A stretch of DNA of 33,080 nt from a virus: the IMG/VR virus record IMGVR_UViG_3300025674_000011, positions 1-33,080 of that record. One strand, given 5' to 3'. Numbering within the stretch: position 1 is the first letter of the stretch; each line of letters starts with the position of its first letter. The position numbers and the translations under genes are program-made. The notes beneath the pieces are model-generated. The model searched no databases. It was given only the letters and a program-made list of their open reading frames with translations, and was not told the origin of the DNA. Below, piece by piece: positions 4,174-26,345 of this stretch.

Positions 4174-7100
4174 CTATCTATTTCTGCCACCTGCTATTGA
4201 ACGCAAATCATCATCAAGTCCTAATAAACCTAATAATGGTGCATTATATGATATAGTTTTAAGACCCTCTTCGGTTCTATCATTTACTAAATCGTAAGCT
4301 CCATTAATCCATTCTCTGTACATATTAGGTGTAGCACCTAACATTCCAAATGCAGCATCCCATCCAGTAGCATTGTACCTACCTTTTAACCATGAATTAT
4401 CAGGATTATGCAAACCAAATGCAGCAGATGCCTCAATACCTCTATAAGCAATTTCAGAATATAGTCCTAATATTCCTGATCTATCTACAACTTGCATAAA
4501 TAATTCAGAATAATCTTTATCTTCAAACCACCAATCAGGTTTTCTTGTAGATAAAACTAAATAAGACATACCCATCAAAGCTATTGCACCTGACAATCTA
4601 TGCTTTTTATTTGGATCAAACATAGGTCTTAATATTCTTTGGTTTGCTGCAAAAGAAAAATTATAAAATTGAAATGGATAAGACATTACACCTGACTCTA
4701 TACGTGCTATAGGATAACGATAAGAGCCATCTGCTTGTTTGCCAACTGAAGCACGTGGATCAGGCTGTATACCCATCTTAGCCATATATGGTTTCCATTT
4801 TTTAAACACAAAACCATCAGCCATTGTAGGTCTATCAAAGGCTGTTGCGTGCATTATTGTATTTCTAGCACCATTATTAAGATATGTTTCCATTTGTGAT
4901 TTTAATTCACGATCTGCTTTGGTTTTTGTTGACCAACCTTGAATGTTTAAAAGTGGCATATCAGAATCAGTAAACTGCCAAGCACCATTCTCATACAATC
5001 TTTTAGCAAGATCTCTTGTTATTCCATATCTATTAAGTTCATCAATATCAAATTGATCTAAGTTATCATAATTTTTAATTTGATTGTAAAATTTAGGTAT
5101 ACGTATTGATGAGTCTATACCTTTACCTAAACTTGTAACAAATGAAAGAAAGTTAAATTTATAGAAAAGGTTTTCCATTGCCTCTGCACCCTTTTCTATC
5201 TTTCCCATTTGTAATGGTCTGGTCATTTCTCCAAGATATTTATCCTGTGCTATAGGTCTGTACATCTCCAAGCCTTCACCTACGTGTTGAACTTGTTTGG
5301 CATTTAATCTCATCTTATCAAAGTTACCATCAAGAGAACGAAATACACCTTTAATTACATTCCCCAAACCATGCTCAAGTACTGGCATAGCAACAGTTTC
5401 AGTTACTGCTGTAATACCTGCACCTGTAAGATATGTTACACCACTAAACTTCTTACCTATACGAGCAAACTTTGTATCCCATCTATTAGGTTCACGTGTC
5501 ATTTGCCCTGCAACTCTTTCGTAATCTGAAAGAAAATCAGATTTAATATTAGCTATAGCTCTTTGTGTATACTTTTTTGATGTTTGCATTTCTGCTTCCA
5601 TCATATCCATAATATAATCTATAGAGTCATCACCAAATTTCCTTGCATACTCTATTCTAAATCCCATATTTTTTGCATACTGAGATAGAACACCAAGATC
5701 TTTAACAATAAAATCTTTAACTTTCCACTCAGGTATATTGGTAGTTCTCATCATTATATGTTTGCCCTTGCCTACACCTAATGGAGTACTGTATCCCATA
5801 GGATCATCACCCATTGACAAGATATGAGAAACATCTTCTGCACCTGCTCTTTGTGCATCTTCTAAACTAGTTATAGGCAATCTTTCATTGCTATTGCCTG
5901 TCCATCTAGTTATAAAACCTTGATCTAAATAATGATCTGCAAATATATTTTCTAATTGTTTCTGCTTTGCAGGATCATTAAGCAACATTTGTTTGTCATA
6001 ATAGATAGCCCATTTATAATTATCACGTGTTTGTTGATAGCCATCATAAAAGTTCTTTTGTTTTAGTAAATTTTTTAAACTTAATTTATATATTTCTTTA
6101 GCAGCAGGATCTTTTTCTTTTTTTATTTTTTCACCTAACAGTGTTATACGATCATCCAACTTAACTAAAGCAGCTTTAACACTTGCAGGTGTATGAAACA
6201 CACCAACATCCTGTGCTAACTCATCAAAGTATCTATAAAACTGTGCTATACGTTCCATACCTTTACGTTTGTATTCAGGTATATCTGCGAAATAGGACTT
6301 ATTCCATGCAGGATTGCCATTTAAAATTTGCAACTCAACTATTTCTTCTCTAAATTCTTGCTTTGATGGAATCTTTTTTAAGTAATCTCTTGTTGCATCA
6401 TTAAAATATTTTGTTTCTATTTGTTTACCTAACTTTTGTTGAGCCTTTTGAAATGGTGTTAGGTAATCTATACCTGCTATTTGTCCTGTTCCCTGTACTT
6501 TATATAGCTCTTGCATATATAAATTATCAATATATTGCTCAACCTCTAATCCCTTAGCATTATAAACCTGTTGCATTACATCTATAGATTGTACTGGCCT
6601 ACCTTGCATAGATACAGCACCATTAAATCCTATTTGCATATTGTAATCTTTAACAATACTGGGTGCTTCTTGACCATCATACTTGCCAAATTGCAATCGT
6701 CTTGATGGTATAAGTTTATTTAAAAAACTTAATTTATCTATAGTAAGTTCCTTTAAACTAGAGCCTTTCATAACTGGATCTTTATCAAGTGGCACATCAA
6801 ACTTTTGATTAATCCTAAAGTCTGCTTCAAGTAGTTTAATTATTTCTTCATCAGTAACAAATTTTGTTTCTACAGGTGCATCCATTTCATTTGGATTTAT
6901 ATTTTTAAATTTAATTTGTGATGCTCTTTGTTCTGTTGCTGCTTTAAATTCTTTAAATGTACTTGATTTAATTATTTTATTAAGTTTATCTTGTGTTATT
7001 TTATTTTGATTATAATTATTAGTAACTAATTTTGTTATGTTTGCTAAAGTCTCACCAGTTTCAGATGCTTTTTTTTGCATCTCATCTTTATTATTTAATA

Positions 7101-22510: not shown

Positions 22511-22530
22511 AAACACCCCCTTACCCCCTC

Positions 22531-22560
22531 TTTATGGAACAACTGAATATCACTTGTCAA
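22531..22560 (-). promoter_or_regulatory. Candidate sigma70-type promoter for late leftward unit
   Basis: On the minus strand TTGACA (22560-22555) is followed after 18 nt by CATAAA (22536-22531). The −35 is a perfect consensus and the −10 matches 4 of 6. Transcription would begin near 22524, leaving a leader of about 14 nt with the G-rich ribosome site of the small terminase. With no phage RNA polymerase in the genome, a host-type promoter is expected here. Confidence 0.55.
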
Positions 22561-22671
22561 GGGCTTTTATAACCTACTGTTTATAAAGGATTTATCGTGG
22601 TGGTTTCCATCATGCGTGTGCCATACCTAGTCGGAATTGCAAGAGTTCCCCTACAACCTAAGGCATCAGTC

Positions 22672-22856
22672 TCTGAGTCGCTAAGAGTGCGACTCAGATA
22701 CTGTGCAACGGATAGTAGCCCAACCTCTTCCCCTCATGCAATTCCTTTGTATGCATGGCAGTTTAATTCTTATAAAGACATGAATAACGTAGAATCGGTG
22801 AGCAATGGGATTGACCCATTCACACCGATCAAAAGATCTGAAGATCGCCCAGATCT
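22672..22856. other. Cluster of perfect hairpins
   Basis: Four inverted repeats lie close together: TCTGAGTCG with CGACTCAGA (22672-22680/22690-22698, 9 bp); CATGCA with TGCATG (22735-22740/22752-22757); ATCGGTG with CACCGAT (22794-22800/22823-22829), enclosing AATGGG with CCCATT; and AGATCTG with CAGATCT (22834-22840/22850-22856). They could be RNA helices or binding sites for dimeric regulators such as the XRE-like protein encoded at 26502-26732. Confidence 0.55.
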
Positions 22857-22919
22857 CTTGACTCTTCATGCGACAATATCCCTCTCTACGCACACTCCCT
22901 TTACTCTGCGAGGCACACG

Positions 22920-22948
22920 TTGGGAAAGCATGCTCCTGATATTATACC
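22920..22948 (+). promoter_or_regulatory. Candidate early rightward promoter
   Basis: TTGGGA (22920-22925), a 17-nt spacer, and TATACC (22943-22948), each matching 4 of 6 consensus bases. Transcription would begin near 22955 and cross the structured leader before the first early gene at 23126. This is a moderate match only; no better pair was seen between here and 23126. Confidence 0.35.
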
Positions 22949-22960
22949 ATACCACTAAAG

Positions 22961-23088
22961 GGGGTCGCTTCACCCCGTTTCGATAATCATGTTGTGATGG
23001 ATATTTGTTTCGCTCCATCAGCTTCGCTGATTAAACCCCTTGAGTGGCATGGACGAGTAAGGGTGTAGCTTTCCCAAAGTGTTTGGGA
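22961..23088 (+). promoter_or_regulatory. Structured early leader with competing hairpins
   Basis: GGGGT/ACCCC (22961-22965/22972-22976), TGATGGA/TCCATCA (22995-23001/23014-23020), ATCAGC/GCTGAT (23017-23022/23026-23031), CCCTT/AAGGG (23037-23041/23059-23063) and TCCCAAA/TTTGGGA (23072-23078/23082-23088). The second and third helices share bases 23017-23020 and cannot form together, as in an attenuator. The early ribosome site (AGGAG) follows at about 23112. Confidence 0.5.
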
Positions 23089-23125
23089 TTGAAACTTAAA
23101 CATATCTAACATAGGAGATAATGAT

Positions 23126-23692
23126 ATGACAAAAACTAAACTAAATACATTTAATGATATTTCAACAATCATACTAAACGAAATACCTGATTCATTATTC
23201 AATGACGTCAATAACTACCTTATCGACAGACCAATGAATGCTGATGGTACTAAACGTCAATCAACTGAACAAGGTGAGAGAATGGAAAATCCAAAATACA
23301 ATCTCGACTTGTTCTTAATGATTGGTGGCATTACAGTATCATGTGCTTATTCTCTTAAATCTGCCAAAGATTACTTGGATAAGACACAGTATACATACAA
23401 TCAAGATGTCGAAAGATTCAGCCAAGACGAGGTACGTGGTTCATATGTTGAGATTGCTTACATGGTAGCTCAAGATAAATACGAGATCTGTAAGAAAATG
23501 TATGACCAATTTGCGAACTTGTTTGAATCAGTCATGGGGTATGGTTGGGCGACCGAAAATGGTAAGGTACAACCTAACTATGGTATAGATTGGTTTCAAA
23601 ATAAGAAACAATACAAACTAGCCAAACAACCAATGCCTACTGTTACTACAAAGAAAGTAACTGCAAAAGACAGAGCACTTGGTGTAGCCTAA
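23126..23692 (+). CDS. Unknown early protein, 188 aa
   Basis: First gene of the rightward unit, with ribosome site AGGAG 8 nt before the ATG. The protein is soluble and mixed alpha, with no catalytic motif I recognise. The middle carries YNLDLFLMIGGITVSCAYSL and KSAKDYLDKTQYTYNQDVER; the C-terminus is basic (KKVTAKDRALGVA). First early genes of phages often alter host functions, but nothing in the sequence shows which one. A 7-bp hairpin lies just after its stop. Confidence 0.8.
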   Translation: MTKTKLNTFNDISTIILNEIPDSLFNDVNNYLIDRPMNADGTKRQSTEQGERMENPKYNLDLFLMIGGITVSCAYSLKSAKDYLDKTQYTYNQDVERFSQDEVRGSYVEIAYMVAQDKYEICKKMYDQFANLFESVMGYGWATENGKVQPNYGIDWFQNKKQYKLAKQPMPTVTTKKVTAKDRALGVA

Positions 23693-23747: not shown

Positions 23748-24011
23748 ATGAAATATATAGAACGATTAAACAATGGTGACATAGATAATATGAAGTATAA
23801 ACATTATGGTAAACTTCATAAACACTGTAAATCTACACGTGATTATTGGAGTGAGAATATGTCAAGAGCTATATATCTTTGGAATAAACGTGGTGTAATG
23901 AGAATGTACAAAGACTACAGAAGAACATATGACCTATCTACATCAGCCATGTTAGTAAGAGAATTTGCATGGGATATGTGGGTAAAATCTAAACTGAGGA
24001 GTAGGGCTTAG
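23748..24011 (+). CDS. Unknown early protein, 87 aa
   Basis: Basic and aromatic (HYGKLHKHCKSTRDYWSENM, then RAIYLWNKRGVMRMYKDYRR), ending AWDMWVKSKLRSRA. No known family recognised. The start is preceded by a purine-rich ribosome site (AGGAAAGAGATT). The stop codon lies in the loop of an intrinsic terminator (24000-24036), which ends this first early block. The high Arg/Trp/Tyr content would fit binding to a host protein or nucleic acid, without direct evidence. Confidence 0.7.
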   Translation: MKYIERLNNGDIDNMKYKHYGKLHKHCKSTRDYWSENMSRAIYLWNKRGVMRMYKDYRRTYDLSTSAMLVREFAWDMWVKSKLRSRA

Positions 24012-24036
24012 GCTCTACTTTTCTTTTTATTTTTTG
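24000..24036 (+). terminator. Intrinsic terminator overlapping a stop codon
   Basis: AGTAGGGC (24000-24007) pairs with GCTCTACT (24012-24019), 8 pairs including one G-U, around the tetraloop TTAG, which contains the stop codon. A T-rich run, TTTTCTTTTTATTTTTT, follows. This is a well-formed rho-independent terminator for the first early block. Confidence 0.85.
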
Positions 24037-24107
24037 CAGACGTGAAGATTTCTCTCGCCATGCGAGGCTCGACAAATCTGCGAGTCGGGTCTCGCACACC
24101 CTGCAAA
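24033..24107 (+). ncRNA. Candidate structured RNA, three-way junction
   Basis: Closing helix TTTGCAG/CTGCAAA (24033-24039/24101-24107). Inside it, AGATTT/AAATCT (24046-24051/24074-24079) is capped by CTCGC-CAT-GCGAG (24054-24066), and it stacks directly on GCGAG-TCGGGT-CTCGC (24080-24095). All helices are perfect. CTCGC and GCGAG each occur twice, so the arms can swap partners. It follows the terminator, and its first bases overlap the T-run. Further hairpins lie downstream (GCCATC/GGTGGC 24113-24127; TCGTGG/CCACGA 24168-24186). No match to a known RNA family comes to mind. A 30-codon frame at 24060 lacks a ribosome site. Confidence 0.6.
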
Positions 24108-24167
24108 CTACAGCCATCTTTGGTGGCAACAACTGGAGGCTCGTCAACCTGAGCGTGTAATAGCTTG

Positions 24168-24186
24168 TCGTGGAAAAATACCACGA
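24168..24186 (+). promoter_or_regulatory. Hairpin before small membrane-protein genes
   Basis: TCGTGG (24168-24173) pairs with CCACGA (24181-24186) around AAAAATA. It is followed by TGGTTTTGAATTG, only a weak T-rich stretch, so termination would be partial at most. The first downstream gene starts at 24223 with its own GGAG site. Confidence 0.5.
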
Positions 24187-24222
24187 TGGTTTTGAATTGA
24201 ATTTAGAAAACGGAGAACGAAT

Positions 24223-24402
24223 ATGATTTACATTTCATGTATAATATTAGGAACAGTAGGCATATTATTATCATTGATATATGCTTATGAATGGTCAGGT
24301 GCAGACCCATATGTATTTAATTTTGTAGTCGCTTATACTATTAGCATTGCAACATTACATCATGGCTTGTACCACACAAGAAAAGTAATAAGGAGGAAAT
24401 GA
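24223..24402 (+). CDS. Small two-segment membrane protein, 59 aa
   Basis: Reads MIYISCIILGTVGILLSLIY, then AYEWSGADPY, VFNFVVAYTISIATLHHGLY and HTRKVIRRK. It has two hydrophobic segments (about residues 3-20 and 31-48) joined by a short polar loop, and a basic C-terminus expected to face the cytoplasm. Ribosome site GGAG lies 7 nt before the ATG. Its last bases carry the AGGAGG site of the next gene. The function is unknown; as an early membrane protein it could act in superinfection exclusion, but that is a guess. Confidence 0.75.
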   Translation: MIYISCIILGTVGILLSLIYAYEWSGADPYVFNFVVAYTISIATLHHGLYHTRKVIRRK

Positions 24403-24557: not shown

Positions 24558-24578
24558 CGATTCAATATGGAGGACAAT

Positions 24579-25472
24579 ATGAATCACATGACAAAGACAG
24601 GACTAGAAAGACTAACTGCAGATCATTGGGAAGACTATGCTTTCCCAATAGAAACTGTACCGATCAAAGCTAACGTACATGATGATCCATCAGGTGACAT
24701 ACCAATACCTGATCGTGTTGCACTGATACGATCCGATACTAATGAGTATCTAGCAACACACTCATTGCAGTACAGACCAGTGTTACATCAAGATGTAGTG
24801 ATGCCTGTAATGAATATCCTTGATCGTATATCTAAGAACTATCATGTTAATGTACGTATGCATGACAATGGTGCATTGATGGTAGCCAAGTTTACTTGCA
24901 AAGATATCTTGATAGAAGATCCATCACTCAATGATTACATTGCTTATCAGATAACATTACGTAACTCATACAATGGTATGTGGTCAGTCATGATTAATGC
25001 GTATGGCTTGCGTATGTTCTGCATGAATGAATGTACTACACCTGATAAGATTGCTAACTTCAAACTCAAACACAATGGTATCTTCAACTATAACTTTGAG
25101 CATCTTGAACATTCACTTGATGTGTTTCGTAATAGTGAAGCCAAGTACAAAGCATGGCATAAGCAAAGTGTAGCAGATACTGTAGCAACTATGTTGTTTG
25201 AAAAAATATGTTACTCAGCAAGACCAACAATAGATGGTAAGCACTACAACGCAACGCAAGTATACAATCTTGAAAGACTATGGTCACAATACAAAAGCGA
25301 GATGGGTCGCACAGTATGGAGTCTGTACAATACAGTAACACACTGGGCATCACACCCAACAGAAGTATCACGACCAGAGAAGACTAAGGTTGAACGTAAC
25401 AATGCGTTCACTAAATACTTACAACACAACAACAATATATTTATTGACACACAGGAGGTAATCAATGTCTAA
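24579..25472 (+). CDS. DUF932-type protein
   Basis: 297 residues from ATG at 24579, chosen because GGAGG lies just upstream while the earlier ATG at 24567 overlaps that ribosome site. The stretch PDRVALIRSDTNEYLATHSL, then QYRPVLHQDVVMPVMNIL matches the DUF932 opening (ALVRxDTGExLGxVGxxYxPVQN). Later parts (DYIAYQITLRNSYNGMWSVM, RMFCMNECTT) fit the family's core. DUF932 proteins are widespread in phages and plasmids; the function is not established. It lies just ahead of the non-coding RNA unit and overlaps the next gene by 8 nt. Confidence 0.85.
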   Translation: MNHMTKTGLERLTADHWEDYAFPIETVPIKANVHDDPSGDIPIPDRVALIRSDTNEYLATHSLQYRPVLHQDVVMPVMNILDRISKNYHVNVRMHDNGALMVAKFTCKDILIEDPSLNDYIAYQITLRNSYNGMWSVMINAYGLRMFCMNECTTPDKIANFKLKHNGIFNYNFEHLEHSLDVFRNSEAKYKAWHKQSVADTVATMLFEKICYSARPTIDGKHYNATQVYNLERLWSQYKSEMGRTVWSLYNTVTHWASHPTEVSRPEKTKVERNNAFTKYLQHNNNIFIDTQEVINV

Positions 25473-25635
25473 TCAATATTACGAACAACTATTAGAACAA
25501 ACATATGAGAAAGTAGCTGATATGTCTGTTGATAAGTTCATGTCTATGTGTGAAGAATATAACATGGAAGTATCAATAATAGATAGTTTGGCACAAGAAC
25601 TAACATACAAACTAGTGGAGGCTAGAAGCGAATGA
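25465..25635 (+). CDS. 56-aa acidic protein
   Basis: Reads MSNQYYEQLLEQTYEKVADM, then SVDKFMSMCEEYNMEVSIID and SLAQELTYKLVEARSE. It is a helical, acidic protein with ribosome site AGGAGG 6 nt before the ATG, overlapping the end of the DUF932 gene by 8 nt and the next start as ATGA. No family recognised. The strong ribosome site and the tiling of start and stop codons are the evidence that it is real. Confidence 0.75.
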   Translation: MSNQYYEQLLEQTYEKVADMSVDKFMSMCEEYNMEVSIIDSLAQELTYKLVEARSE

Positions 25636-25889
25636 TTACATACTCAACAAAAGAACTTAAGTTATGCACAGAGTTTTCTCGTGTATCAACACCTGAGAAT
25701 TACAGATCTATGTATGAACATTTGGTTGAGGTTGCAAGACCTAATGCCAATGAGAACGCAGAGGTTTGGGTAAACAAAATGACAGTCAAGACTACAAAGA
25801 TGTGGGAGAAATGCAATGCAGATCAGCTTGATGACTCACATGAATTGTGGCTTGATGAACAATTACGCAAACAGTATATGGCTGTATAA
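25632..25889 (+). CDS. Unknown early protein, 85 aa
   Basis: A helical protein (KELKLCTEFSRVSTPENYRS, MYEHLVEVARPNANENAEVW, VNKMTVKTTKMWEKCNADQL). It is translationally coupled to the 56-aa gene by ATGA, and GGAGG lies 8-12 nt upstream. No known domain recognised. Its last 13 codons also contain the promoter candidate of the non-coding RNA unit (25852-25880). Confidence 0.75.
   Translation: MITYSTKELKLCTEFSRVSTPENYRSMYEHLVEVARPNANENAEVWVNKMTVKTTKMWEKCNADQLDDSHELWLDEQLRKQYMAV
25852..25880 (+). promoter_or_regulatory. Candidate promoter of the non-coding RNA unit
   Basis: TTGATG (25852-25857), a 17-nt spacer and TATATG (25875-25880), each 4 of 6 to consensus. The predicted start near 25887 lies just before the first helix of the RNA. 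TATAAG at 25885-25890 is an alternative −10 but has no −35 at the right distance. Confidence 0.45.
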
Positions 25890-26112
25890 GTATTCAATCT
25901 AACAAGCCGAAAGGTCACAGTCTTTAAACGGCCTATAGTCTATCCTGTAAGCTGACATTTAGTTCACTTGTGATGACAGATAGGTAGATATTGTTAGAGA
26001 GAAGCTGCTTACTAGTGCAATCATTTAGTCCTCCTATCCTATATGATTGATGGCCCACTAGTAAGTAGCATTAATTAATGGGGGATAATAGGGAGGGTTA
26101 CCCCCCTTTTTA
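25887..26112 (+). ncRNA. Candidate structured non-coding RNA, about 225 nt
   Basis: P1: TCTAACAA/TTGTTAGA (25898-25905/25991-25998). P2 inside: GCCG-AAAG/CTTT-AAA-CGGC (25906-25913/25922-25932, AAA bulged). P3 inside: CTATC-CTGT/ACAG-ATAG (25940-25948/25976-25983, one bulged C). P4: GCTGCTTACTAGTG/CACTAGTAAGTAGC (26004-26017/26056-26069; 13 Watson-Crick pairs plus one G-U), continuing as CAATCAT/ATGATTG (26018-26024/26043-26049) with an 18-nt loop containing CCTCCT. An intrinsic terminator follows at 26080-26112 and a promoter candidate precedes. No open frame of note. I recognise no known family (not tRNA, tmRNA or a clear 6S shape). Confidence 0.72.
26080..26112 (+). terminator. Intrinsic terminator of the non-coding RNA unit
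   Basis: GGGGG (26080-26084) can pair with CCCCC (26101-26106), or the inner GGGAGGG with CCCCCCT around TTA, followed by TTTTT. Either pairing gives a GC-rich stem and U-run. It ends just before the ribosome site of the next gene (ATG 26124). Confidence 0.75.
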
Positions 26113-26123
26113 TGGAGTATAAT

Positions 26124-26345
26124 ATGGACAAACTTTTAGAACAAAGACGACAAGGTTATCTTGCCTACTTCAAAGATGGAGTAGCTGATGGATTAATGTA
26201 TGGCGAGAGAGATGAAACAAAAACGTTTTCAACTTATTACAAACAAGGTTATGATTATGGTTTGACTTTGTATGAACAGCAAAACAATCAGCCAAATGAA
26301 GTAATCTATAAAACATGGGAGCAAAGAAATGGAAGAAAGATTTGA
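26124..26345 (+). CDS. Unknown 73-aa protein, possibly RMF/CrpP-like
   Basis: Start at 26124 is supported by GGAG 8 nt upstream; an earlier ATG at 26112 overlaps the terminator. The sequence RQGYLAYFKDGVADGLMYGE, then TFSTYYKQGYDYGLTLYEQQ contains G-x3-10-G ... G-Y-x-x-G spacing that loosely recalls ribosome modulation factor (GYxAxxxG...WxxGW) and the CrpP family. Key Trp and the NPY motif are absent, so this is only a suggestion. It is the first gene after the non-coding RNA terminator and overlaps the next start. Confidence 0.7.
   Translation: MDKLLEQRRQGYLAYFKDGVADGLMYGERDETKTFSTYYKQGYDYGLTLYEQQNNQPNEVIYKTWEQRNGRKI

Follow-up and report, generated by a model that had tools for sequence, protein, structure and literature searches.

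In the early region of T7-type phages, RNase III processing hairpins lie between cistrons. The put RNA of phage HK022, a structured RNA in the early operon and upstream of a terminator, promotes polymerase read-through of terminators. Larger structured non-coding RNAs of unknown function, GOLLD and ROOL (Rfam), are also found in phage genomes. In Alphaproteobacteria, the hairpins of the ar14/cuckoo small RNAs (CcsR, NfeR1) expose a C-rich anti-Shine-Dalgarno (anti-SD) motif on diverging stems; the CcsR RNAs lie behind a protein gene, are processed out of its mRNA and end in a terminator (PMC10746234, PMC10253847).

We analyzed a 33-kb IMG/VR virus record (the window, taken at its full length), in which a first-pass annotation had placed a self-contained unit, with its own promoter, for an undescribed structured RNA. 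By comparison with related viral contigs, positions 25891-26111 are very probably a real, non-coding and structured stretch, which is a composite of module A, module B and hairpin T rather than one self-contained RNA gene (Table 1). That the RNA is structured and undescribed was upheld by covariation in A and B, by their unrelated gene contexts and by the absence of any relevant Rfam match at E<=10. A self-contained unit was not supported, as A and B are exchanged separately inside the early operon, where we saw no conservation of a promoter.

The conserved loop of B resembles the anti-SD loops of the ar14/cuckoo RNAs. However, it reads CUCCUAU rather than CCUCCUCCC, B has one such loop where they have several, and B carries a conserved 3' bulge. 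Likewise, no DUF1127 gene was seen here and there was no Rfam match at E<=10. Instead of an ultraconserved CCUCCUCCC in the unpaired regions of several hairpins, the mark of that group, we found a single loop with UCCUCCUAU. As an intercistronic bulged hairpin in a phage early operon, B resembles the T7-type RNase III hairpins in geometry, but differs in its conserved loop and bulge sequence; we know of no counterpart of A in the T7-type early region. Unlike the HK022 put RNA, which has another architecture, A occurs without terminators and T occurs without A, a genomic pattern that argues against A being necessary for read-through of T. Compared with GOLLD and ROOL, A and B are much smaller, are exchangeable modules and have no Rfam match.

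Table 1. Features of the early region of the window around the RNA modules (positions in the window).
Feature	Position	Strand	Description
DUF932 gene	24567..25472	+	PF06067, E=1.3e-14; same early operon, upstream of the RNA modules
85-aa gene	25632..25889	+	ORF; ends just 5' of module A; conserved in relatives
Module A	25891..26004	+	Three-way-junction RNA domain; RNAalifold consensus; CM matches in many phages
P1 of A	25898-25905/25991-25998	+	8 bp, UCUAACAA/UUGUUAGA
P2 of A (comparative)	25906..25915	+	GCC-GAAA-GGU, GNRA-capped 3-bp hairpin; RNAalifold
P3 of A	25920-25923/25986-25989	+	Alignment, covariation
7-nt bulge of A	25924..25930	+	UUAAACG; conserved, P3-P4 junction; partly fixed by search patterns
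P4 of A	25931-25934/25982-25985	+	Carries apical arm 25935-25981
Module B	26004..26069	+	Long bulged hairpin; outer stem 14 bp (26004-26017/26056-26069), inner stem 7 bp
Apical-loop motif of B	26029..26037	+	UCCUCCUAU; loop displays CCUCCUAU
3' bulge of B	26050-26055	+	AUGGCC; between outer and inner stems
Hairpin T	26080..26111	+	Terminator-like: imperfect stem, 5 G-C pairs, then T5
73-aa gene	26124..26345	+	ORF downstream of the modules; SD GGAG 26114-26117

Phage, host and early-region context

The window virus is a marine podovirus-like phage with a bacterial host. Given that its terminase and capsid protein are 65% and 52% identical to those of Pelagibacter phage Hodr, this host is likely of the SAR11 type. 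ARAGORN detected no tRNA or tmRNA genes in the window. The flagged interval sits in the rightward early region after DUF932, 56-aa and 85-aa genes, and on its 3' side lie small genes and those for an HTH_3 regulator, a RusA-like resolvase, a RecE-like exonuclease and an Erf-like protein. A DUF932-like protein also precedes RNA modules in L079, L081, L084 and L107. An in-frame ATG at 26112 extends the 73-aa downstream gene to a 77-aa ORF. In L008, L016, L033 and L035, hairpin T is separated from the conserved early gene that follows by the insertion of an extra ~65-aa gene.

In agreement with the first-pass annotation, the interval contains no gene; a protein-coding reading was ruled out by arm lengths that differ between homologues by non-multiples of three. 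The accompanying statement that other gaps in the genome are tiny was wrong, since conserved non-coding sequence also occupies 22517-23126 and 24011-24223. The former, ~600 bp between divergent genes, is 86-93% identical in several relatives and likely holds the early promoter region. The latter folds strongly (z=-4.7 for 23981-24090), and its hairpins are partly common to L016, L010 and L014. We rejected the promoter claimed for the RNA itself, as a consensus scan found none and the proposed -10 element, TATATG, is TATCAA in relatives that keep the RNA; the transcript start suggested near 25887 is unsupported.

Structure and covariation of A, B and T

Dinucleotide shuffling, suggested with the annotation as a check on the fold, gave z=-3.05 for the 226-nt interval, with none of 200 shuffles folding as well. 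In a 110-nt sliding scan of the window, however, the interval was outside the 28 best-folding stretches, and many others, coding included, folded as well or better. Fold energy alone is therefore weak evidence, and the case for structure rests on comparison. Covariation in related contigs, a second suggested check, is present in both A and B.

For module A, we aligned 16 distinct homologues, with L126 and L146 additionally found by the model. Relatives were recovered via neighboring proteins and via DNA patterns, and the copies adjoining the 85-aa gene were recovered independently of the RNA. Across this shallow set, in which the core is nearly invariant partly because the search patterns fixed it, 98.1% of cells were paired, four pairs were changed on both sides, and the covariation score (0.125 vs 0.059 in shuffles) was equalled in none of 500 shuffles and exceeded all slid controls. 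The window sequence of A alone has modest fold energy (z=-1.5). The consensus consists of P1, the GNRA-capped P2, a YACA linker, P3 (RUCU/AGAY), the bulge UUAAANG, P4 and an apical arm. The 8-bp P1 and the presence of a junction inside it had both been predicted correctly. AA/UU in P1 of the window becomes UU/AA or AU/AU in other phages, and the first P3 pair (31-100) is G-U, G-C or A-U depending on the phage; the comparative P2 is invariant, hence covariation speaks neither for nor against it. The P2 of the annotation, which is that of the single-sequence MFE fold, lacks covariation and is disrupted in L010, L011 and L109; it was rejected for the comparative P2/P3/P4, whose pairing holds in every sequence (100%) despite changes. 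L007/L010/L085 and L088 carry unrelated stems in place of the apical arm, which in L088 has shrunk to a tiny hairpin, leaving a compact A of ~66 nt.

Module B corresponds to the 14-bp plus 7-bp hairpin already recognized in the annotation and, folded alone, has z=-6.3. Its outer stem was 98.7% paired in 11 sequences, and the covariation score was 0.270 compared with 0.152 in shuffles (0/500 as high); four pairs were changed on both sides, all of them from one clade of two sequences, L084/L085. In this clade B is upstream of A, and the CUCCUAU loop and a similar bulge are set on largely different stems. Unrelated hairpins occupy the site of B in L078 and in L014, L015 and L017, whose DUF932 protein is ~50% identical.

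Regarding the intrinsic terminator proposed at the 3' end, a terminator-like hairpin is indeed present, but as an intrinsic terminator T is imperfect and was not picked up by a terminator scan of the window. In L003 the stem is perfect over 9 bp and is likewise followed by T5. L010 preserves the stem through compensatory change but has lost the T run, which suggests that T may do more than terminate transcription. By inspection, the loops of B and T are complementary, and compatible in the window, L010 and L081; as both resemble SD/anti-SD sequence, we did not count this pairing as evidence.

Rfam searches, also among the suggested checks, returned no hits in the whole window at the gathering threshold and nothing relevant for A+B or the minimal A of L088 when relaxed to E<=10. 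There was no credible match by blastn against GenBank phages and plasmids, and none to the exact cores scanned in GTDB genomes. Eight cultured phage records, Hodr, HTVC008M and HTVC010P among them, yielded nothing credible in a CM search; two hits in HTVC008M (E about 0.5) are without the core. In view of these searches, A, and less certainly B, is regarded as an undescribed family within the wide category of structured phage RNAs of unknown function, and its unusual trait is clean modular exchange. At least two small structured-RNA families are added (A and C, with B close behind), all compact, in a phage group whose nearest cultured relative infects Pelagibacter.

Modular exchange and candidate roles

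Judged from their distribution, A and B are two separate undescribed RNA parts that have been gained, lost and swapped among related viruses, RNA domains being exchanged as cleanly as protein genes. The A core is 84-100% identical between phages, while its flanks can be at chance level; between the window and L084, identity was 0.20 to the left, 0.95 in the core and 0.11 to the right. L006, L009 and L023 are without A, yet B and T persist there and the genes on either side are closely similar. The window and L081 have A-B-T in common after different preceding sequence, and L081 and L107 have A and its preceding sequence in common before different following sequence. Breaks in similarity coincide with the P1 helix of A, and A is found beside unrelated genes. 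Genes 3' of the modules include the 73-aa gene, a different 73-77-aa gene and, in L088, a methyltransferase-like gene, a variety that an accessory role fits better than control of one gene. The modules retain G-U pairs and keep one orientation with respect to the early genes, which points to RNA rather than DNA structure.

Sequence comparison makes it very probable that A and B are independently exchanged modules placed with T between early-operon cistrons, with invariant cores, variable stems and arms, and exchange at helix boundaries. Our preferred reading of how roles are divided among the three is offered only tentatively. A and B would be transcribed within the early mRNA, as their strand constancy and retained G-U pairs suggest. 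A would be an accessory RNA domain, not needed for operon expression, whose conserved core binds a host or phage macromolecule. B would be a hairpin between cistrons that determines the sites at which the mRNA is cut or stabilized, its loop perhaps additionally pairing with SD sequences, and T would end a fraction of transcripts. The dispensability of A and its position before different genes speak against both a single-pathway riboswitch and a need for A in passing T, and fit an accessory domain binding a common factor. For B, the unrelated hairpins at its site in distant relatives favor a processing or stability role; its conserved loop and bulge are unexplained by a simple processing hairpin.

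A reading confined to cis-acting mRNA elements, with B as an RNase III or stability hairpin, A shielding or processing the same mRNA and T trimming 3' ends, appears somewhat unlikely. The intercistronic position of B, its two stacked stems of ~21 bp with an asymmetric bulge, its replacement by unrelated hairpins in distant relatives and, in L079 and L088, the short distance from A to the gene downstream of it are all in keeping with it. However, the unpaired nucleotides of A and B are strongly conserved across unrelated contexts, which is not expected of processing hairpins, and close relatives are without A. We consider it unlikely that A, B, C and probably further small structured RNAs form an exchangeable early-region array acting in trans on host factors or defence. 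Such an array would be the RNA counterpart of swappable accessory protein genes, and modules acting in trans would represent a class of host-takeover or counter-defence factor that has been little explored.

It is improbable that B belongs to a trans-acting anti-SD RNA, in which its loop CCUCCUAU would pair with AGGAG of host or phage mRNAs and block translation, much as the ar14/cuckoo RNAs repress their targets through SD pairing. AUAGGAG, comprising the extra AU of the loop target, showed no enrichment at the gene starts of B-carrying phages over Hodr, a control without module A by model search and with no B-like region seen, and these sites were discarded as a phage target set of B. There is also no Rfam match, and one anti-SD loop rather than two or three. 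Such a role would nevertheless be consistent with conservation of the loop motif while the stems are replaced, as in the ar14/cuckoo design (PMC10746234), and A-B-T might derive from a 3' UTR and have its end at T.

More doubtful still is a regulated attenuator or antiterminator, where A (and B) would sense a ligand or bind RNA polymerase and in this way control how much transcription passes T into the replication genes. T does lie mid-operon with no conserved promoter seen between it and the downstream genes, and the T and B loops are complementary by inspection. However, L006 and L009 keep T and still have downstream genes without A, A occurs without T in L079, L084 and L088, and the downstream genes vary. 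That A is an undescribed self-cleaving ribozyme is very improbable, since despite the compact L088 form, conserved core, free peripheral arms and several sequence contexts, Rfam searches matched none of the known ribozyme families, no cleavage site is indicated and the arm-less forms have no CUGANGA core, which eliminated a hammerhead-like reading.

Further modules in related phages

Other phages carry different module sets, including C, at the matching early-operon site after a DUF932-like gene. Read from the sequences, the combinations are A-B-T in the window, B-T in L006, C-A in L079, B-A-C-D in L084, B-A-C in L085, A-C in L107 and L109, E-C in L150 and E-D-C in L154. Module C is a strongly covarying junction RNA of ~110 nt (UACCACUGGUUCAAUCGGGUCU...AGAUCAAC-hairpin-GUCAGCAAG), with nine covarying pairs and a score of 0.260 vs 0.108; loci tested had no Rfam match. 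By pattern it occurs in 31 viral contigs, one of which, L164, looks like chance, and carriers include L079, L084, L107, L109, L126, L146 and L150-L168. In L084, C is on the minus strand directly after A.

Modules D and E were recognized by inspection only. D is a hairpin element, GCATAGYCTTAARTCAAGTAAGGTCTTTCGTATCCTGAAACGGAGGCTATGC, found after C in L084 and L090 and before C in L154. E, CCATGTAAGCTGTCATTAAGTACACATTGG, stands alone in L150, L151 and L154, and its motif is the apical arm of A in the window (~25946-25973). Most arrays open, just 3' of the upstream gene, with a palindromic hairpin UUCC-N-4nt-N-GGAA (e.g., L107:10134, L152 and L165:1404), which is absent upstream of A in the window; its inner pairs are varied but complementary (GACGTC, CTGCAG, CATATG, TAGCTA). 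The 46-kb viral contig L168 encodes a permuted alphaproteobacterial-type tmRNA gene (4934-5446, minus strand; RF01849, 100.5 bits) with a possible ORF in the intervening segment, followed immediately by a short TTCC...GGA hairpin and module C.
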